Shown piece after piece: positions 48,786-60,948 of a DNA stretch of 64,000 bases (position 1 is its first letter; every line of letters starts with the position of its first letter). A program made the position numbers and the translations under genes. The DNA comes from Armatimonadota bacterium (GTDB taxonomy: Bacteria > Armatimonadota > Armatimonadia > Armatimonadales > Capsulimonadaceae): positions 1 to 64,000 of the forward strand of contig JAFAZD010000289.1 in the NCBI GenBank assembly GCA_019239955.1, written 5' to 3'. The notes under the pieces were generated by a model that ran no database searches, was not told where the DNA came from, and saw only the letters and a list, made by a program, of their open reading frames with translations.

Positions 48786-49805
48786 TCACGGAGTAGGAGT
48801 TCGCTGTCCGGCGCGAGGAAGAACAGGACATGCTGCTCCCCTCGGCTCAGGCCGGCCGGCCGCCTCCCGAGCCGCCGCGAGGGCATTCGGGAGCGCGACG
48901 GCCCGCCCGCCGATCCTGGAGATCAAGGACTGCATAGTGCCCGCCCGACCGACCTCTAGGAACAGCCGGACACCGTCCTGCTGCATCCGTTGTACGCCGG
49001 GCATCAACTGAGATGGCGACATGGCAAGCTGTGACCAGTGGGTGGCGTCAAAACCTGCCTCCATCCAATCCCCTCGACAAGTGGAAAAAAGGCGCCTTTG
49101 CGTGTCTCGGCGCGGGATGGGCGCCATCGCGGCCTCAAACGTCGCACATCCTTCCCGCAAAAGGCACGAATGAAAGCCCCAGGGCAGAGGAACCGGCTGC
49201 GTCTTGTACCCCGCGTTGCTCAAGTCTCTTAGGAGCGCCGCGACCGCCGAGCGCTCCCCCGACACCACCGTGAGTTCAGGCGCCAGCAGGCAGCCGATCG
49301 ATATCCGGTCGCCGAACGGCGCGATGGCCTGTGCGCACTCCGGCGCGGATAACCAGAGGAAGGCCATCCGACAGCCCTCCGCGTCCGGCTCGAGCAGCCG
49401 GCCGGTCAGGACCGCAACTTGGAGAGCTTCCCGGAGGTCCAGGGCGCCGGCCGCGTATGCGGCGGCAACTTCGCCGATACTGAGGCCGATGACGTTGCCG
49501 GCATCGAAGCCGTAGTGCCTCAGCAGCCGGAACAGGGCGATCTGGAGACTGACCTGGAGCGGGAATAATAATGATGCACGCGTGACAACCGCGTCCTGAG
49601 GAAATGCTGCGAGTCTGCCCTTCAGCGACCATCCCGTCTCCTCGGCGAGCACCGTGTCACATTCCGTGAGCAACTCCTCGAGGTGTGGCTCGCGCACACT
49701 GAGAGACCGTATCCAGGAGACCTCGATGGGCGTACACCCTCCAAAGGCAAACGCCATCTTCTCCCGCGGCAGGAGATCCAGCCAAGCGAACAGGCTGTCA
49801 AGCAT
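48786..49805 (-). CDS. Stand-alone acyltransferase domain (FabD/PKS-AT fold)
   Basis: 339 aa. The AT signature is present: VIGLSIGEVAAAYAAGAL with nucleophile Ser109 in GLSIG (GHSxG in most ATs, here Leu replaces His), VVSGERSAVAALLRDLSNAGYKTQPVPLPWGFHSCLL with the catalytic His212, and the closing LFLEVGRAGTMQSLISRI (equivalent of LEVGP..VL). These proteins load acyl groups from CoA onto an acyl carrier or small molecule. No ketosynthase or ACP is in the cluster, so it probably acts in trans or directly acylates a product. The C-terminus after about 315 is low-complexity and Arg/Pro rich. Confidence 0.82.
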   Translation of the reverse strand: MLDSLFAWLDLLPREKMAFAFGGCTPIEVSWIRSLSVREPHLEELLTECDTVLAEETGWSLKGRLAAFPQDAVVTRASLLFPLQVSLQIALFRLLRHYGFDAGNVIGLSIGEVAAAYAAGALDLREALQVAVLTGRLLEPDAEGCRMAFLWLSAPECAQAIAPFGDRISIGCLLAPELTVVSGERSAVAALLRDLSNAGYKTQPVPLPWGFHSCLLREGCATFEAAMAPIPRRDTQRRLFSTCRGDWMEAGFDATHWSQLAMSPSQLMPGVQRMQQDGVRLFLEVGRAGTMQSLISRIGGRAVALPNALAAAREAAGRPEPRGAACPVLPRAGQRTPTP

Positions 49806-49842: not shown

Positions 49843-50157
49843 CTACGCGCCTGAAAACCCCTCACCCCTCTCCAGCAACCCACGCGCCGACAGATCCGCC
49901 ACCGCTGCGCGGATATCTTCATCCAAATCGGTTTCCGCAGGAATGGGAAAGGCCGAGCGCAGCCGCTGGACACAGGTCGCCAGCGTCGTCTCACCATCAC
50001 AGCACTCCCAGATCAGGGCTGCGCTGGCATTCAAAAAGTGGACCCGGCCATCCTCCGGCTCCCGGACCAGCAGATCACGCCCCGCCGGCCTCACGGGCAG
50101 GTCCCGGCGCCGAGGTAGCAGGCCGCCGGCCGTTCTCTCTTCTTTCGTATCCGACAT
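49843..50157 (-). CDS. PqqD-family peptide chaperone (RiPP recognition element)
   Basis: 104 aa from ATG 50157. The PqqD winged-helix pattern is clear: GRDLLVREPEDGRVHFLNASAALIWECCDGETTLATCVQRLRSAF and DEDIRAAVADLSARGLLE. PqqD-like proteins bind the leader of a precursor peptide and present it to modifying enzymes. It is encoded 88 bp downstream of the 43-aa peptide. In HPr-rel-A systems a PqqD-like protein is a constant companion of the HprK-related kinase. It could also start at TTG 50160. Confidence 0.88.
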   Translation of the reverse strand: MSDTKEERTAGGLLPRRRDLPVRPAGRDLLVREPEDGRVHFLNASAALIWECCDGETTLATCVQRLRSAFPIPAETDLDEDIRAAVADLSARGLLERGEGFSGA

Positions 50158-50245
50158 CAATGATTGCTTCCTTCCAGCATTTTTCTTGGTCTATCAAAGT
50201 GGCCGGGCGTGGGCCGTGAACCGCCCATGCCCGGCCGGAAGCCTC

Positions 50246-50377
50246 TTAATAGTACGGCCCACCGCCAGATGCTCCCCACACTTCCATGGATTCCAGCAGT
50301 TCCGCTTCGGTATAAGAACTGATAGCGGGCTTTTCGTAGGGAAGTTGGGTCTCCTCGACAGTCTCTGTTGTGTTCAT
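50246..50377 (-). CDS. 43-aa candidate RiPP precursor peptide
   Basis: ATG 50377 overlaps the stop of the class I isoprenoid-synthase-like gene (ATGA), with GGAGGTGA six bases upstream. The peptide has an acidic N-terminal part (MNTTETVEETQ), a central LPYEKPAISSYTEAELLESM and a C-terminal EVWGASGGGPYY. The Y-x-K-P...Y-T-x-x-E-L block resembles leader motifs recognised by PqqD-like domains (YxxP-type in lasso leaders). The last ten residues (WGASGGGPYY) have the Trp/Gly/Tyr/Ser composition expected of a core. There is no Cys, so lanthipeptide or sactipeptide chemistry is unlikely; Ser, Tyr and Trp remain as sites for phosphorylation, prenylation or oxidation. Confidence 0.8.
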   Translation of the reverse strand: MNTTETVEETQLPYEKPAISSYTEAELLESMEVWGASGGGPYY

Positions 50378-51354: not shown

Positions 51355-52427
51355 TGCGCCCCCGCAAATCGGGACAGAGCCTCCAGGCAGTACGCCGTGG
51401 TGACTTCCTCAGAGCCGAAATGTTTGATGTCGGGAGCCGAAGGGCCTCCCTGCAGCCGGATCTCCCGCCGCGTGCCGGAGGAGCAAAGAAACAACTGCAT
51501 CGGGGTCTTCCGCCGGTCCCAGGTGTAAAAGGCCGCAGACGGCCATGAGCCGTCCGCGCCCTGACAGTCGAGAAGGGACCGTACCGCATCCGCCTGAGCC
51601 CGGCCAGTCACCTCGAAATTGGCTAGCACACAAACCGCCATCGCCGTTCGGAGCGCCGTGCCGAAAGAGCCGTCCGGTTGCTGCAGGGACAGCAGCCGCT
51701 CCAGGATGGTGTCTCGGGCCGTACCCAAAGACCGTGCCCCTTCCCGATATGCCCGCGAGTACATGTAATACAACACGGTCTCGTCCGTATAATAGGCACT
51801 GTGCTCCTCCGGGCGAGGCCCACAAAAGGTGCGCTGCAGGTACTCGGAAACCGGCCGCGTGGCCTCGCACTCGCCCAAGCAGAGCAGGGCGTTGGCATTG
51901 ATCCCACAGCAGACGTCGTTGCCCTGAGGGACCATGTAGAGGAACGGGAGCATGTCGTCGAAGGCCGGCGGCTCGGCCAGGAACCACGTCTGGAAGAGCC
52001 CATCGGGCGTCCGGTTCGCCAGGAGGGCAGCCGTACTGAGAGTGCTGATGCCCTCCCGTTCCAGAACGAAGGCGACACAGGAAGTCGTGTCAACATCGGG
52101 CACGAGGGACAGTGGTACCGACACGCCCACCGTGGGAATAGGGAGGGTCTGCTCACGGGCGAAGTAGCGACAGAGGCCCGGCCCGTCTACTTCTACGGCC
52201 AGTGCGTCAATCACCCGCCGCCGGATATCCCGCGCATCCGCGCCCGGTACCCAGCGGAGGCAATCAGCCACGCAGGATGTCAAAAACGTCAACGTCTCAA
52301 AAGTATTGTCCGTCCGCTGGAAGACATCTACGGATGACCTCAGGCGGAACTGACCTGACGGGCGCTGCTGCTTGTGCAGAAACGTGACGCCCGCCTCAAT
52401 ACCATTTTTCAGATGCTGGATTTCCAT
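51351..52427 (-). CDS. Class II terpene cyclase-like protein (DxDTT motif, prenyltransferase/squalene-oxidase repeats)
   Basis: 358 aa from ATG 52427, which lies inside the nucleotidyltransferase gene (19-nt overlap). The alpha-alpha barrel fold is suggested by repeats LLSLQQPDGSFGTALRTAMAVCVLANF and LLDCQGADGSWPSAAFYTW (QxxDGSW, QW-type). The motif LVPDVDTTSCVAF (111-116) stands where class II cyclases carry DxDD; DxDTT variants are known from bacterial drimenyl-diphosphate-type cyclases. It would protonate and cyclise a polyprenyl substrate. It is shorter than typical class II enzymes (about 500 aa), so a non-cyclase role of the repeat fold remains possible. Confidence 0.68.
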   Translation of the reverse strand: MEIQHLKNGIEAGVTFLHKQQRPSGQFRLRSSVDVFQRTDNTFETLTFLTSCVADCLRWVPGADARDIRRRVIDALAVEVDGPGLCRYFAREQTLPIPTVGVSVPLSLVPDVDTTSCVAFVLEREGISTLSTAALLANRTPDGLFQTWFLAEPPAFDDMLPFLYMVPQGNDVCCGINANALLCLGECEATRPVSEYLQRTFCGPRPEEHSAYYTDETVLYYMYSRAYREGARSLGTARDTILERLLSLQQPDGSFGTALRTAMAVCVLANFEVTGRAQADAVRSLLDCQGADGSWPSAAFYTWDRRKTPMQLFLCSSGTRREIRLQGGPSAPDIKHFGSEEVTTAYCLEALSRFAGAQ

Positions 52428-53494
52428 GACTTCCAATCTTGCTGAAGCACCCAAAACTGGCGGCGGATTCTGTGCCGGACGTAGGGCAGCCGGTCCTGCA
52501 TACGGTCCCGCACGCGCAGGTGAAACAGAGAGCGATCCAGCGGGCGTCCCGGCCCTTCGAAGAACTGCCGACGGACCTGCGCCGCCAGTGCCGACACCAC
52601 GGGCGATGTGTCGGATCGCAGAGAGTCCGGGGGGGCGATCCCCAGGAGGTCTTGCGCCAAAGCCAAGCCCAGCCACAACACCCGCTCACACCCGAGGCCC
52701 TTCGCCTGTGCGGCCAGTGCGCGGCCGTCCAAATCCGGGAGGGCGCGCAGCAGCGCGGCCACGTCGCAAATCCAACCCAGTCGTTCCCAGCAGTGCTTGG
52801 CGCCATGGACGCACAGCACGAGCAGCAGGTCCTCCGGCGCCAGCGTGAGCACCGTCACGCTCCCGATCTGGACGGTTCGCGCGCGATCCCAGAGGCCGTC
52901 CATGTCCAGCGGCAACGGGAAGAACCGGGGCCGAAAATGCCAGTGCAGTTCGACCAGCATGGCGTCCGACGCGCGGCGGAAGTTGTACTCGCAGTCGGCC
53001 CGCAGATGTTCCGCCTCCTCGCGCGCATCGCGGAACTGGTGCTCCGGCTGATAGCCGACGGTCCGCAGCAAGTCCCCCGCGCGCAGAATGTCGGTGGGCC
53101 GCAGCAGGATGTCCAGATCGCCGCAGGCCCGGAGCGTCAAGTCGCCGTACACGGTGGCGGCGAGAACGGGTCCTTTGTAGGGAATGGCGGCAATGCCATG
53201 AGACCGGAAAAGAGTCAGCAGTGTGTCCAATTCATCCATCAACTGCTGGTTACGCGCGGCGTTCACGTGAGACAGGAGACGCAGCTTACTCAGAACCGGC
53301 GGCGGCGGTTGCGGGGCGCTCGGCCCACGCAGCCGGTGGTAGAGCAGCGGGGCCACACTCTGCCGTCGCGCCAGCGAGAGCAAAGAGTCCCACTGGGCGG
53401 TCTGCATCGAGCACGTTCGGACAGGCTGGGTGGGTGTAAACACATCTCGCAAACAAGCGAGAAGTAGTTCCCATTCCGGCTGCATCTGTGTCAC
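52409..53494 (-). CDS. Nucleotidyltransferase family protein (NTP_transf_5-like)
   Basis: 361 aa. Typical blocks of this family are SLARRQSVAPLLYHRL, FRSHGIAAIPYKGPVLAATVYGDLTLRACGDLDILLRPTDI (GD-x-D metal residues in CGDLDILL), FRRASDAMLVELHWHF and LLLVLCVHGAKHCWERLGWICDVAALL. Such proteins are frequently encoded with lasso-peptide or HprK-related peptide systems, where their role is unknown. First gene of the cluster; start GTG 53494 (next Met codon at 53485). The promoter candidate lies about 100 bp upstream. Confidence 0.82.
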   Translation of the reverse strand: MTQMQPEWELLLACLRDVFTPTQPVRTCSMQTAQWDSLLSLARRQSVAPLLYHRLRGPSAPQPPPPVLSKLRLLSHVNAARNQQLMDELDTLLTLFRSHGIAAIPYKGPVLAATVYGDLTLRACGDLDILLRPTDILRAGDLLRTVGYQPEHQFRDAREEAEHLRADCEYNFRRASDAMLVELHWHFRPRFFPLPLDMDGLWDRARTVQIGSVTVLTLAPEDLLLVLCVHGAKHCWERLGWICDVAALLRALPDLDGRALAAQAKGLGCERVLWLGLALAQDLLGIAPPDSLRSDTSPVVSALAAQVRRQFFEGPGRPLDRSLFHLRVRDRMQDRLPYVRHRIRRQFWVLQQDWKSWKSSI

Positions 53495-53799: not shown

Positions 53800-55380
53800 C
53801 TACTTGGACTGCCGGAGCAGGCCGTATTCGAGACTGTCCACGACGGCGTGCCAGCTCGCGTCAATGATGTTGGTGGAGACGCCGATGGTGGACCAGGTGT
53901 CCTCGGCGTCGGCGCTGTCTACGATGGTGCGGACTTTCGCGGCCGTGCCCTCCCGGCCGCTGATGACGCGGACTTTGAAGTCGGTCAGGCGGATGGACGC
54001 CAGTTCGGGATAGTACTGGGTCAGCGCCCGGCGCAGGGCGCTATCCAGGGCATTGACGGGACCGTCGCCCTCGGCCACGGTCAGAATCTCCTCGTCGCCG
54101 ACGCGCAGCTTCAGGGTCGCCTCGGTGATGGCGTCGGGGTCGTCGCCGCGCTTCTCAACGATGACGCGATAGCCGACCAGATCAAAGAGGCGGCGGTAGC
54201 TGCCGGTGGCCTTCTTGACCAGCAGCTCAAAGGAGGCCTCCGCGCCCTCAAACGAGTAGCCCTCGTGCTCCAGCTGGGCGACCTGCTGCAAGATGGCCTT
54301 GGTCTCCGGGCTGCTCTTTTGCAGATTGAGATTGTCCTTCTGCACCTTTTCCAGAATGGTGGACGCGCCGGACAATTCGCTGACTAAAATCCGGCGCTCG
54401 TTGCCGACCAGTTCCGGGCTCAGGTGCTCGTAGGTCTCCGGGTTCTTCCGCAGGGCGTCCACGTGCAGGCCCGCCTTGTGGGCGAACGCCGACCGCCCGA
54501 CGTAGGCGGCGGAGGATTTCGGCGGGACGTTGGCGATCTCGTCCACGTAGTTGGCCATGTCGGTGAGTTCGGCCATGTGCCCGGCGCAGGAGAGATCATA
54601 GCCCAGTTTCAGTCCCAGGGAGGGGATGATGCTGGTGAGGTTGGCATTGCCGGTGCGCTCCCCCAGCCCATTGACCGTGCCCTGGACCTGGATGCAGCCG
54701 ACCTGGACGGCGGCGAGGGAGTTGGCGACGCCGCACTCGGCGTCGTTGTGCGTGTGGATGGCGAAGCGGCCCTGCGGGAAGCGGGCGATGACCTCCGCGA
54801 CGATGCGGGCGACATCGTGGGGCAGCGTGCCGCCATTGGTGTCGCAGAGGGCGATCACGTCCACGCCGTTGTCCAATGCGGCTTGCAGGCACTGGGCCGA
54901 GTAGTCCGGGCTGCGCTTATAGCCGTCGAAGAAGTGCTCGGCGTCGTAGATGACCTCCCGGCCCTGCGACTTGAGGAATTGCGTCGTGTCAGCGATCATC
55001 GCCAGGTTTTCGTCCAGCGGCAGGCGCAGGGCCTCCGTCACCTGGAAGTCCCACGACTTGCCGACGAAGGTGATTACGGGAGTTTCGGCGTCGAGCAACT
55101 GGCGCAGCATCGGCTCGTCGGCGGCGGCTCGGTTCGCGCGGCGGGTGCTGCCGAAGGCGGCGAGCTTGGCGTGGTTAAGTTTGACGGACTTCATCCGCTC
55201 GAAGAAGTCTATGTCTTTGGGGTTGGAGCCGGGCCAGCCGCCCTCAATGTAGTCCACGCCGAAGGCGTCCAGGCGGCGGGCGATCTTGACCTTGTCCTCA
55301 ACGCTGAAGGAGATGCCCTCGCCCTGCGAGCCGTCGCGCAGGGTGGTGTCATAGATGTCGATGTGGGTTCGTTTTTGCAT
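53800..55380 (-). CDS. cimA: (R)-citramalate synthase
   Basis: 526 aa from ATG 55380 (in-frame ATG 55389 also possible). DRE-TIM metallolyase: IDIYDTTLRDGSQGEG (substrate/metal motif), GVDYIEGGWPGSNPKD, CDTNGGTLPHDV, FAIHTHNDAECGVANSLAAV (metal His-x-His), NGLGERTGNANL, plus the C-terminal LeuA-type regulatory domain. IEGGWPGSNPKD and the overall length mark CimA rather than LeuA or homocitrate synthase. It condenses pyruvate and acetyl-CoA to citramalate, a threonine-independent entry into isoleucine. The regulatory domain suggests end-product inhibition. Confidence 0.92.
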   Translation of the reverse strand: MQKRTHIDIYDTTLRDGSQGEGISFSVEDKVKIARRLDAFGVDYIEGGWPGSNPKDIDFFERMKSVKLNHAKLAAFGSTRRANRAAADEPMLRQLLDAETPVITFVGKSWDFQVTEALRLPLDENLAMIADTTQFLKSQGREVIYDAEHFFDGYKRSPDYSAQCLQAALDNGVDVIALCDTNGGTLPHDVARIVAEVIARFPQGRFAIHTHNDAECGVANSLAAVQVGCIQVQGTVNGLGERTGNANLTSIIPSLGLKLGYDLSCAGHMAELTDMANYVDEIANVPPKSSAAYVGRSAFAHKAGLHVDALRKNPETYEHLSPELVGNERRILVSELSGASTILEKVQKDNLNLQKSSPETKAILQQVAQLEHEGYSFEGAEASFELLVKKATGSYRRLFDLVGYRVIVEKRGDDPDAITEATLKLRVGDEEILTVAEGDGPVNALDSALRRALTQYYPELASIRLTDFKVRVISGREGTAAKVRTIVDSADAEDTWSTIGVSTNIIDASWHAVVDSLEYGLLRQSK

Positions 55381-55750
55381 TTTTTCCATTCCGGGTGATG
55401 CCCCCAGCCCCCAATTCTATGGGAGTCGGGGGAGGAGACAATGCGCGATGCCGTGCGGTCCGGCCCGACCGGGGCGGCACGCGCAGGGTGTCACCCGGTC
55501 GGGCGGATAATCATGATGCGAATGGCGATGTCCAGAGTTCGTTTTGGCATTTTCGTTTGATGGCACAGGGACGAGTGAGTGGCGAGCGGTTGAAACCGCT
55601 CGCTAGGCGGCTTCGCCGCGACCGTCCAGGGGACGGAAGAGACGCCCCCGGCGTCCCGTCCGCGAGGACGGTCAATCCGTAGCGAGTGGTTTTAACCGCT
55701 CGTCTGCGTCACATCAGTTATCATACCATCCGGAAGCCTTGCGGAGCCTG
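55381..55750. repeat. 370-bp spacer with a palindromic element (GAGCGGTTGAAACCGCTC family)
   Basis: No gene. 55582-55603 (CGAGCGGTTGAAACCGCTCG) and 55682-55702 (CGAGTGGTTTTAACCGCTCG) are palindromic arms that flank GGCGGCTTCGCCGCGACCGTCC and GTCCGCGAGGAC hairpins, making a roughly 120-bp element related to the one at 29181-29326. Near cimA a CCCCCA..TGGGAG inverted repeat (about 55403-55426) is present. Confidence 0.7.
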
Positions 55751-56359
55751 TCATGAATCGGAGGATGCATAACGATCCAGCAGGCGTTCCAGATGAGCCT
55801 TCGCCTGGGGCCACTCCTCGACGATGACGCTATAGTATACCGAATCGCGGACGAAACCGTCCGGCAGGATGCGGTGGCGGCGCAAAACGCCCTCACGGAT
55901 GGCCCCGATGCGCTCCATGGCGCGCTGAGAGCGCTCGTTGCGGGCGTCGGTCTTGAGCTGGACTCGGATCAGGCCCAGGGTCTCGAAGGCGTGGCGGAGC
56001 AGCAGATACTTGCATTCCGTATTGATACGGGTTCGCTGGGCGGCGGGCGTCAGCCATGTCCAGCCGATCTCCAGTTGCCGATGTACGGGCACGATGTCCA
56101 GGAAGCGCGTACTGCCGACAATGGCGTTCGTCTCCTGGTCCATGATCGTGAACGGCAGGGAGGTCCCCCGCGCCTGCTCCGCCAGGGCGGCCCGCACGAG
56201 ACCCTGCATATCGGCCAGCGCCTCCGGGCGCGCCACGGGCATATAGCGCCAGATGTCAGGATGGCGTCCGGCCTCCCACAAGCCAGCGGCATGGTCCGGC
56301 TCCATCGGGACGAGTCGGGCGCGCTGGCCCGTGAGTAGGATGGGCCGGAAGTCGATCAC
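55751..56359 (-). CDS. GNAT-family N-acetyltransferase (RimJ/RimL-like)
   Basis: 202 aa. GNAT_3-type blocks: TGQRARLVPMEPDHAAGLWEAG, GSTRFLDIVPVHRQLEIGWTWLTPAAQRTRINTECKYLLLRHAFETLGLIRVQLKTDARNERSQRAMERIGA, ending LRRHRILPDGFVRDSVYYSV. These enzymes acetylate protein N-termini or small amines; substrate unknown. Its ATG overlaps the PII stop by ATGA. Confidence 0.85.
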   Translation of the reverse strand: MIDFRPILLTGQRARLVPMEPDHAAGLWEAGRHPDIWRYMPVARPEALADMQGLVRAALAEQARGTSLPFTIMDQETNAIVGSTRFLDIVPVHRQLEIGWTWLTPAAQRTRINTECKYLLLRHAFETLGLIRVQLKTDARNERSQRAMERIGAIREGVLRRHRILPDGFVRDSVYYSVIVEEWPQAKAHLERLLDRYASSDS

Positions 56360-56694
56360 AGCGCCGCCTCGCCCTCCTCGCCGGTGCGGATGCGGATGGC
56401 GCGCTCAACCTCTGTGACGAAGACCTTGCCGTCGCCGATCTCGCCCGTGCGGGCGGCCTCCTCAATCGCGGCGACGGCCGCATCGGCGAGGTGGTCCGGG
56501 ACGACCGTTTCGATCTTGATCTTGGGCAGCAGGTTGACGACGTAGGTGTTGCCCCGGTACTTCTCGGTGTGGCCGCGCTGGTGGCCGTAGCCGCGCACGT
56601 CGGTAACGGTCAGGCCGACGACGCCGACATCTTCCAGGGCGTCCTTGACATGATCGAGTCTCATGGGACGGATGATGGCCTCGATTTTTTGCAT
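56356..56694 (-). CDS. glnB: Nitrogen regulatory PII protein
   Basis: 112 aa from ATG 56694. KIEAIIRPMRLDHVKDALEDVGVVGLTVTDVRGYGHQRGHTEKYRGNTYVVNLLPKIKIETVVPD, with T-loop residues 37-55 and the Tyr of the RGNTYVVN block in the place of the uridylylation site; the C-terminal GDGKVFVTEVERAIRIRTGEEG is the ATP-binding signature. It senses ATP/ADP and 2-oxoglutarate. No amtB or glnA is adjacent; instead it follows leuB, which suggests a link between nitrogen/carbon status and branched-chain amino-acid synthesis. Confidence 0.92.
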   Translation of the reverse strand: MQKIEAIIRPMRLDHVKDALEDVGVVGLTVTDVRGYGHQRGHTEKYRGNTYVVNLLPKIKIETVVPDHLADAAVAAIEEAARTGEIGDGKVFVTEVERAIRIRTGEEGEAAL

Positions 56695-56739
56695 AAGATC
56701 GCCCCCCGCCCCCAATGCTGGGGGAGCCAGAGCGCAGGA

Positions 56740-57834
56740 TCAGTCGTGCATGACAATCCCCGCGACTAAGTCGCCCATCTGGCGGCAGGTGACGTGGTTC
56801 CTGTGATCGGCTTCCATGATGTCGCGGGTGCGGTAGCCGCCTTGCAGAACGCGGGAGACGGCGTCCTCGACGTCGCGGGCGGCGGCCTCCGCGCCGAGCG
56901 AGTAGCGCAGGAGCAAGGCACCGGAGAGGATGGTGGCGAGCGGGTTGGCCTGGCCCGTCCCCGCGATGTCGGGTGCGCTGCCGTGCGAGGGTTCGTAAAG
57001 GCCGAACGTGCCGCCGTCCACCTTGCGCTCGCCCAGGGAGGCGGAGGGGAGCATCCCCAGGGAGCCGGTGAGCTGGGCGGCCTCGTCGCTGAGGATGTCG
57101 CCGAAGAGGTTCTCGGTGACGATCACATCGAAGGACTGCGGACGGCGGACCAGGTCCATCGCGCAGGCGTCCACCAGTTGGTGCGAAAGGATGACATCGG
57201 CATATTCTTTCGCCACCTCGGTGACGGTCTCGCGCCAGAGGCGGGAGGTCTCCAGGACGTTGGCCTTGTCCACGCTGAGGACGCGCCGGTTTGGGCGCAC
57301 CTGCGCGGCGCGGAAGGCAACGTGGGCGATGCGGGTGATCTCGTCGCGGGTGTAGACGCAGGTGTCCAGCGCGCGGTCGCCGTCCCAGCCTTTGGGCTGG
57401 CCGAAGTAGAGGCCGCCGGTCAACTCGCGGACCACCAGGATGTCGAAGCCGCCCTCGACCAGATCGGCGCGCAGGGGACAGGCGGAGGCGAGGCTGGGGT
57501 AGAGGACGCAGGGGCGCAGGTTGGCGTACAGGCCCAGCTTCTGGCGCAGCGGCAGCAGCGCGCCGCGCTCCGGGCGCAGGTTGGGGTCGGGGATTTTGTC
57601 ATACTTCGGGCCGCCGACCGCGCCCAGATACACGGCGTCGGCGCGCTGGGCGAGATCAAGCGTGTCCAGGGGCAATGGGTGGCCGGTGGCGTCGTAGGCC
57701 GCGCCGCCGACAAGGGCTTCGTGCAGGTCGAGGTGCAGGCCGTGCTTTTTGGCGGCGGCCTGCAAGACCTTGACGCCTTCGTGCATGATCTCCGGGCCGA
57801 TGCCGTCGCCCGGTAATACCGCGATGGTGGGCAT
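56740..57834 (-). CDS. leuB: 3-isopropylmalate dehydrogenase
   Basis: 364 aa. [14 protein letters not shown] at the start, [33 protein letters not shown] (LeuB-specific), [45 protein letters not shown] and [37 protein letters not shown]. It oxidises and decarboxylates 3-isopropylmalate in leucine synthesis with NAD. It lies 9 nt after the PhyH gene. leuC/leuD are not in the window. Confidence 0.95.
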
Positions 57835-57843
57835 GATGGGTTC

Positions 57844-58731
57844 CTATCCGTCTTCCGCCGCCCGATGATACTGCGGCGTCCACTCGACAAAGCTCAGGGG
57901 CAGGCCGCGCCAGTAGTATTGGTACCGGGCGGACTGCCAGCCGGAATAAATCTCCTCCCAGCACAGTTGGCCGTAATGGGGCCGCATCGAATCTTCGACG
58001 AGCGGCTGCGAGACGCCCTGGTAGCGATAGTCTACGGAGATGCGGAGGCGATCCGGGGTGACATTGGGCAGGCCCTTGTGGACGAGGTGGCTGTGGAACA
58101 GCAGCACATCGCCCGCCTCGAAGTCCGATGCAGCCCAGGCGAAGGGAAGTGCCTCCGTGTCAATGCCCAAGCCGCCCGCGCCGAGCGCCCTGTGGACCGG
58201 GTAAAGGCCCTGCCGGTGTGAGCCGGGCAGGACGGCGAGGCTGCCCTGCTCCTGGGGGCAGTCGGCCAGCGGCATCCAGGCAGTCCAGGTCTCCGGCGTG
58301 CCCTGGATGTGAACGTAGTCCTGGTGCGCGGGCGTCGTGAACGCCGTCGCCTGCGGGAAGATGATGCGGGTGATGTTGCGGGCATGCGGCAGGGTCGGCT
58401 CGCCGAACAGCGTGTCCAGGACGGCGATCAGCGACGGGTGGTGCGCCAGGGCGTGGAAGTCTTCCAGCCGCATGACCCGGTCATACACGGCCATGAATGC
58501 CGGCTCCGGCTCGATGTGCCGGACGCCCGGCGCGGCGATGCCCTCCATCGGGTCCGCGCCCGGCGCGAGCCAGCCCGCCTCGGCACACAGGTCCAGTATC
58601 TGACGGCGCACATGCTGTAATGATGCGCGGTCAATCAGGCCGCGCAAGAATAGGTAGCCGTCCTCGCGCGCCCGTTGCCGCAATCCCTCCGGCTGTGTCA
58701 GCAGATCGTTTGAGATGACGAACCCGTTCAT
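57844..58731 (-). CDS. Phytanoyl-CoA dioxygenase (PhyH) family Fe(II)/2-oxoglutarate oxygenase
   Basis: 295 aa from ATG 58731. The double-stranded beta-helix carries HQDYVHIQG (His-x-Asp iron ligands, about 160-168) and LLFHSHLVHKGLPNVTPDRLRISVDYRY (distal His and the 2-oxoglutarate-binding Arg). Members hydroxylate lipids, amino acids or natural products; the substrate here is unknown. It lies in the leu operon between a GNAT and leuB, which raises the possibility of a leucine-derived substrate. Confidence 0.83.
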   Translation of the reverse strand: MNGFVISNDLLTQPEGLRQRAREDGYLFLRGLIDRASLQHVRRQILDLCAEAGWLAPGADPMEGIAAPGVRHIEPEPAFMAVYDRVMRLEDFHALAHHPSLIAVLDTLFGEPTLPHARNITRIIFPQATAFTTPAHQDYVHIQGTPETWTAWMPLADCPQEQGSLAVLPGSHRQGLYPVHRALGAGGLGIDTEALPFAWAASDFEAGDVLLFHSHLVHKGLPNVTPDRLRISVDYRYQGVSQPLVEDSMRPHYGQLCWEEIYSGWQSARYQYYWRGLPLSFVEWTPQYHRAAEDG

Positions 58732-58735
58732 GGCG

Positions 58736-59206
58736 TCACAAGTCGTTTCTGAGAGTCCGCAAAAAATCGTTGAAGCCCATCTTGCGCCAGAAGGTCTGGG
58801 CGGCGGGGTTGGCGCGTACGACCTGGACCTCGATGCTCTCGATGCCGCGCGAGAGGAACCAGGCGCGCAGGCGCTCGTACAGGCGGCGGCCCAGACCCCG
58901 GCCCCGGAAATCGGCACGGACGCACAGGTCGGCGATGTAGCCGCACTCGCGCGTCAGCAGAGTCGGGCGCTGCATGATCTGGCCGAAGGTATAGCCGACG
59001 ACCACCCCTTTCGTCTCGGCGACGTACACGGCGACGGTGTCACAGTCCAGCTGGCCCCGCAGGTAGGACAGGAACCAGTCGGCGGCCTGGGCGTTGGGCC
59101 GCAGGCGCGGCTCGGCGGCGGCGCTGGCCTGCTGCAATTCGCGCCACAGCCCCCCGATCTCCGGCAGGTCGCGCGCCGTCGCCTCGCGGATGAGGATGTC
59201 GGTCAT
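58736..59206 (-). CDS. GNAT-family N-acetyltransferase
   Basis: 156 aa. MTDILIREATARDLPEIGGLWREL, then acetyl-CoA-binding motif A in YIADLCVRADFRGRGLGRRLYERLRAWF (RGRGLG), and VQVVRANPAAQTFWRKMGF. Single-domain GNAT, substrate unknown. It lies 4 nt upstream of the PhyH gene in the branched-chain operon. Confidence 0.87.
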   Translation of the reverse strand: MTDILIREATARDLPEIGGLWRELQQASAAAEPRLRPNAQAADWFLSYLRGQLDCDTVAVYVAETKGVVVGYTFGQIMQRPTLLTRECGYIADLCVRADFRGRGLGRRLYERLRAWFLSRGIESIEVQVVRANPAAQTFWRKMGFNDFLRTLRNDL

Positions 59207-59229
59207 GTCAGCATCAACGGTCGTATCAG

Positions 59230-59340
59230 CACATCAACGGTTGAAACCGTCGCTGATGGCGCTACGCGCCGAGTGTCCGCCTTCGCGGACACAAGAGGGG
59301 CCGGGCCTGTCTCCGCGAAGGCGGAGACTCGGCCGCAGGC
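59230..59340. repeat. Cluster of short palindromes upstream of the GNAT gene
   Basis: Between leuA and the GNAT: a GGTTGAAACC core at 59238-59247, GTGTCCGCC/GGACAC (59272-59291), GTCTCCGC/GCGGAGAC (59308-59327), CGGCCGCAGGCCG (about 59329-59341). No gene. Similar palindromic mosaics occur at 55582 and 29181. Confidence 0.65.
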
Positions 59341-59385
59341 CGGGAGCGGCGAATTCATTCGCTGGTCCGGTCAGTGGGACGGGTA

Positions 59386-60948
<1,563 letters not shown>

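Follow-up and report, generated by a model that had tools for sequence, protein, structure and literature searches.

An AT-fold acyltransferase without the malonyl-binding Gln/Arg pair accompanies a terpene cyclase and a P450 in a probable terpenoid-RiPP operon

ChrPC and NctPC make RiPPs that carry polycyclic isoprenoid groups (reviewed in PMC13290415). The P domain of ChrPC is itself trans-IDS-like, and a Gln before the second Asp motif in prenyltransferases of this type has been linked to Trp recognition (PMC13290415, PMC10853753). Other class II cyclases, the drimenol synthases, are fused to HAD domains (PMC9128629). Acyltransferases of the AT fold, in the literature cited here, serve carrier proteins, which they either load with polyketide and fatty-acid intermediates or clear of them. 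Arg117 (FabD numbering) forms a salt bridge to the malonyl carboxylate, and among trans-AT PKS enzymes a missing Arg is diagnostic of acyl hydrolases (PMC11775670). PfaB, the terminal acyltransferase of PUFA synthases, also lacks the Gln/Arg pair and transfers C16-C20 acyl groups, not malonyl (PMC12895367). Replacing the His of GHSxG with Ala increased hydrolysis about seven-fold, with transacylation kept (PMC4186864).

We examined an AT encoded in a 64,000-nucleotide stretch of an Armatimonadota contig (hereafter, the window), part of a 409-contig assembly. The coordinates given for this gene in an earlier note were exact, as was its position between PqqD (upstream) and P450 (downstream) genes; it lies on the minus strand, which the note did not give. 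The genes between 53494 and 45973 on that strand are closely packed into a single run (Table 1), with successive gaps of -19, -4, -4, 85, 37, 0, 66 and -4 bases. The start of the 43-aa ORF overlaps the preceding gene (ATGA), and the P450 ORF opens at the base right after the AT stop codon, with Met41 as its likelier start. Just upstream of the operon (53800-60948), genes for Iso_dh, P-II, GNAT and PhyH are flanked by two genes of the LeuA/homocitrate-synthase type.

Table 1. Minus-strand genes of the run that contains the AT, in operon order
Feature	Coordinates	Strand	Basis
NTP_transf_5 nucleotidyltransferase	52409..53494	(-)	profile match
Monodomain class II terpene-cyclase homologue, 358 aa	51351..52427	(-)	DVDTTS motif, QW-like repeats
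Candidate class I isoprenoid / trans-IDS-like prenyltransferase (DDxxD protein), 326 aa	50374..51354	(-)	DDLVD and VDDAVDLDDD motifs only
Putative precursor peptide, 43 aa, MNTTETVEETQLPYEKPAISSYTEAELLESMEVWGASGGGPYY	50246..50377	(-)	strong ribosome site; precursor role presumed
PqqD-type RiPP recognition element (RRE)	49843..50160	(-)	weak match to HPr-rel-A system PqqD
Stand-alone AT-fold acyltransferase, 339 aa	48786..49805	(-)	Pfam, PDB sequence matches, AlphaFold/Foldseek, residue table, tree
Cytochrome P450	47487..48785	(-)	profile matches; AGFETT and FGAGIHYCLG motifs
HPr-kinase-related protein with P-loop	46437..47420	(-)	weak match to TIGR04352
S26 signal peptidase-like protein, 155 aa	45973..46440	(-)	by-eye likeness only (GGSMAP...VVHRV)

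The gene content resembles that of the ChrPC/NctPC systems, in which a prenyltransferase unit (a candidate here) and an MstE-like monodomain class II cyclase act on a ribosomal peptide. Two traits of ChrPC-type systems appear to be present: a class II cyclase with an acid motif, here read as DVDTTS (homologues carry DxDD/DxDTT), and a precursor with a potentially modifiable Trp, which in the 43-aa ORF lies in EVWGASGGG. The ORF also has a Ser and two Tyr toward its C-terminal end. Unlike ChrPC and NctPC, the window has the two functions on separate proteins and adds AT, P450, HPr-kinase-like and nucleotidyltransferase genes. The window cyclase shares the DxDTT acid motif and a beta-domain-like cyclase with drimenol synthases, but lacks the HAD domain and matches them weakly in sequence (E 0.06).

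The 326-aa DDxxD protein has two Asp-rich motifs and gave neither a family nor a PDB match; like the S26-like protein, it had no Pfam match. A single-sequence structure model reached only pLDDT 38, and no relatives were found in 291 Armatimonadota genomes, 27 cyclase-bearing genomes or plasmids. It is thus a candidate prenyltransferase, and the prenylation step is putative. Read against the published enzymes (PMC13290415, PMC10853753), it lacks the Gln just before the second Asp-rich motif (FWGWVDD), which leaves Trp as a candidate attachment residue. A search of plasmids for precursors found nothing. The motif VWGxS is shared by the window precursor and by a Gly-rich protein from Cupriavidus; as it was not general among the loci, we left it as chance. 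A lasso peptide was rejected, as the genome had no match to a B2 protease (Transglut_core3) and the operon genes included no Asn-synthetase-like lasso cyclase. From the precursor and RRE genes, together with the known ChrPC/NctPC RiPPs, we infer that the product may be a RiPP; the operon is probably a terpenoid-RiPP cluster.

Several comparisons identified the protein as an AT. Pfam Acyl_transf_1 matched residues 39-292 (91.5 bits, E 9e-26), and PKS AT domains were the top matches in a PDB sequence search (E 6e-24). An AlphaFold model built from a 9-row alignment (mean pLDDT 86.8, pTM 0.86) was closest to PKS ATs among the solved structures searched with Foldseek (E 3e-26, TM-score about 0.8). 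Ser109 (GLSIG) and His212 (WGFHS), both named in the earlier note, align with FabD Ser92 and His201.

Comparison at FabD positions Q11, Q63, H91, S92, R117 and H201 showed that these are C, F, L, S, T and H in the window AT; C, F, M, S, G and H in three related Cupriavidus-type ATs; and P, M/L, V, S, V/G and H in two related Verrucomicrobiia ATs. Thus, Gln63 and Arg117 are absent, while Ser and His are retained, in 6/6 members of this group. The FabD, PKS-AT and trans-AT comparators covering both positions kept the pair (at each position, rows too short to reach it were left out, such as the truncated FabD of this genome at His201), with the sole exception of the acyl hydrolase BaeD (Q63 = H, H91 = A, R117 = Q). 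The earlier note had taken the His-to-Leu change in GHSxG as the telling feature. This did not hold up, as GLS is shared by the FabD-like proteins from two Verrucomicrobiia and by a pair that reads as MdcH-like (L099, L106, L104 and L107). The oxyanion-loop Gln (position 11) is variable among PKS ATs, with Met or Asn in several Verrucomicrobial ones, and was dropped as a stand-alone diagnostic. Because His91 and position 11 vary in comparators too, the weight rests on Gln63 and Arg117. The distinctive trait of the window AT, missed by the earlier note, is loss of this malonyl-gripping pair (to Phe/Thr). Since Arg117 binds malonate, and PfaB without the pair moves long-chain acyl groups, malonate should not be a substrate of the window AT; the enzyme could be either a transferase or a hydrolase.

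The resemblance to described ATs is partial in each case. With FabD and the trans-acting malonyltransferases, the window AT shares the fold, the dyad and its free-standing form, but not Gln63 and Arg117. It resembles PksD, BaeD and PedC in having the AT fold and Ser-His dyad without the malonyl-binding Arg or the His before the nucleophile, but differs from them in its place in the tree and in having no PKS or ACP partner; the oxyanion-loop Gln of PksD (Gln12) is Cys. It resembles PfaB in having the fold without the Gln/Arg pair, and we propose that it likewise uses non-malonyl acyl groups. However, PfaB works with ACPs in a PKS-like megasynthase and has no terpene context.

In a tree of 52 rows, the window AT, the three Cupriavidus-type ATs and the two Verrucomicrobiia ATs formed one group (support 100/97), within which the window and Cupriavidus ATs were joined at 97/90. 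Forcing the window AT to join the FabD, trans-AT and MdcH-like rows was 87.7 log-likelihood units worse (AU p 1.85e-11). The AT thus stands apart from the FabD/trans-AT side, and BaeD also fell outside the group, though on a long branch. A long branch (3.8 changes per column) leads to the two Verrucomicrobiia ATs, whose grouping could therefore be partly artefactual and whose placement is less sure.

Does the AT have a PKS to serve? As the earlier note had claimed, it does not appear to. The query that recovered KS in control loci detected none in the window or the remaining contig searched (contig 60001-78417), and no PP-binding domain occurs on the AT's contig. The carrier proteins lie elsewhere in the genome: contig C93 has one 93-aa carrier-protein ORF, and a 1992-aa frame on contig C96 contains two PP-binding domains. 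The two KS genes of the genome (frames of 394 and 481 aa) are on other, separate contigs. A second AT, on contig C45, is in plsX-fabH-fabD order and is cut by the contig end. A role in fatty-acid synthesis as a malonyltransferase, whether housekeeping or spare, is scarcely credible for the window AT. A fabD model does match it, but weakly (53.8 bits vs a cut-off of 260.9), while the genome has this separate fabD, the malonyl-binding Arg is missing, and placement on the FabD/trans-AT side was rejected. The outcome that the earlier note had named as refuting its reading, placement among housekeeping FabD enzymes in a genome with no other fabD, was thus not observed.

We searched for relatives of the AT and their neighbors. 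A contig scan across genomes with the window AT alone as the query found none, and the other AT matches examined in 291 Armatimonadota genomes (29 loci) were FabD-like or PKS ATs. A scan with an alignment of the neighboring cyclase fetched 33 loci from many phyla, of which four, obtained through the cyclase alone, contained an AT of the window group. Two were from Cupriavidus numazuensis and C. laharis, whose ATs matched that of the window at 229 and 222 bits and are directly followed by a P450. The others were from two Verrucomicrobiia MAGs (L072:8270-14627; L083:456-6859), where a glycosyltransferase-cyclase-P450 fusion ORF is followed by a UbiA-AT fusion ORF. When 250 Cupriavidus-family genomes were searched with the C. 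numazuensis AT, 3/3 AT-group matches were beside a cyclase and a P450. The third copy again lies between a cyclase and a P450 ORF, the latter identified by its position and sequence start. No further members were among the best-scoring matches in the 291 Armatimonadota and 388 Verrucomicrobiota-side genomes; in the latter, the 19 next-best matches examined were multidomain ATs that keep Gln63 and Arg117. Thus, a terpene cyclase and a P450 accompany the AT clade in three phyla.

The relatives' loci contained no KS, and the Cupriavidus and Verrucomicrobiia loci had no precursor or RRE homologous to that of the window; the acceptor may therefore differ between systems. By a quick method, the AT-linked cyclases did not form a single clade, which argues that AT and cyclase were united more than once, or exchanged, rather than inherited as one block.

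Other features of the fetched loci were as follows. In the three Cupriavidus-type genomes (L074:138-12977, L081 and L121), a 2779-aa RHS-repeat ORF and a 351-aa protein (P0016), which had no Pfam, NCBIfam or PDB match, precede cyclase-AT-P450; start and stop codons overlap, and a Gly-rich 236-aa ORF lies upstream. In a Methanothrix MAG (L084:6480-10885), a monodomain cyclase homologue is about 2.3 kb from a gene for a nucleotidyltransferase like that of the window (NTP_transf_5, E 6e-55). In another Armatimonadota locus (L048:8309-16276), a cyclase homologue has as neighbors a glycosyltransferase, an Asn synthase and two ORFs that each match both sulfotransferase and P450.

Our preferred model, to which we assign a probability of roughly 0.5, is that the operon makes a ribosomal peptide bearing a cyclised terpenoid, and that the AT is a tailoring enzyme that puts a non-malonyl acyl group on the P450-oxidised terpenoid. 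We infer the order of steps, the donor and the acceptor. A prenyl chain would be attached by the DDxxD protein, folded into rings by the class II cyclase and oxidised by the P450. The AT would then act by the usual ping-pong Ser-His chemistry: Ser109 would first accept an acyl group, anything from acetyl to fatty acyl in size, from either CoA or a carrier protein, and the group would next move to a terpenoid oxygen, most likely a hydroxyl made by the P450. A terpenoid oxygen is the likeliest acceptor because cyclase and P450 are the fixed company of the AT, which is probably a dedicated decorating enzyme and not part of polyketide or fatty-acid synthesis. More tentatively, the ATs may constitute an unnamed malonyl-blind clade that acylates P450-oxidised cyclic terpenoids without a carrier; in the window, the terpenoid would be mounted on a peptide, giving an acylated, oxidised terpenoid-RiPP hybrid.

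Other functions can account for some of these observations. An acyl hydrolase like PksD, BaeD or PedC, clearing misacylated carriers or deacylating an intermediate, would fit a nucleophile motif that, as in BaeD, has no His and is paired with a missing Arg, the feature considered diagnostic of these enzymes (PMC11775670); the increased hydrolysis of the His-to-Ala mutant (PMC4186864) is also consistent with this role. We nonetheless consider a hydrolase unlikely, since there is no adjacent PKS or carrier protein to proofread, the constant partners of the AT are a cyclase and a P450, and BaeD, albeit on a long branch, is outside the group. Moreover, the oxyanion-loop residue, which is reported to be strictly Gln or His in acyl hydrolases (PMC11775670), is Cys or Pro in the AT group.

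It is also possible, though quite unlikely in our estimation, that the AT acylates the peptide itself (at a Ser, Tyr or Lys residue or at the N-terminus), with no involvement of the terpenoid. Such a role would fit the location of the precursor and RRE genes immediately before the AT, and also the Ser and two Tyr at the precursor's C-terminal end. However, the relatives of the AT are always found with a cyclase and a P450, but not with a recognisable homologous precursor or RRE, and the terpenoid is therefore favored over the peptide. Loss of four active-site positions that FabD and PKS ATs mostly keep could instead mean that the protein is catalytically silent or has a non-acyl, structural role, such as holding cyclase, P450 and peptide together. 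We regard this as very improbable, since none of the six members departs from the Ser, the His or the GxSxGE frame (SxGE), even at identities down to about 18%. Because members of the clade from three phyla have a terpene cyclase and a P450 beside them, acyl transfer to a terpenoid or peptide, which the earlier note had suggested, is the best reading, with the terpenoid favored as the acceptor.

A literature search for systems combining an AT with a terpene cyclase found nothing matching. If our model is correct, the AT fold would have taken on a new job in this lineage, alongside a terpene cyclase and a P450. The combination of an AT lacking the Gln/Arg pair with an adjacent small class II cyclase is a searchable signature, and would provide a new handle for locating terpenoid and terpenoid-peptide clusters. 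The recently described RiPPs that carry polycyclic isoprenoids would likewise gain a further stage, in which the product is oxidised and acylated.
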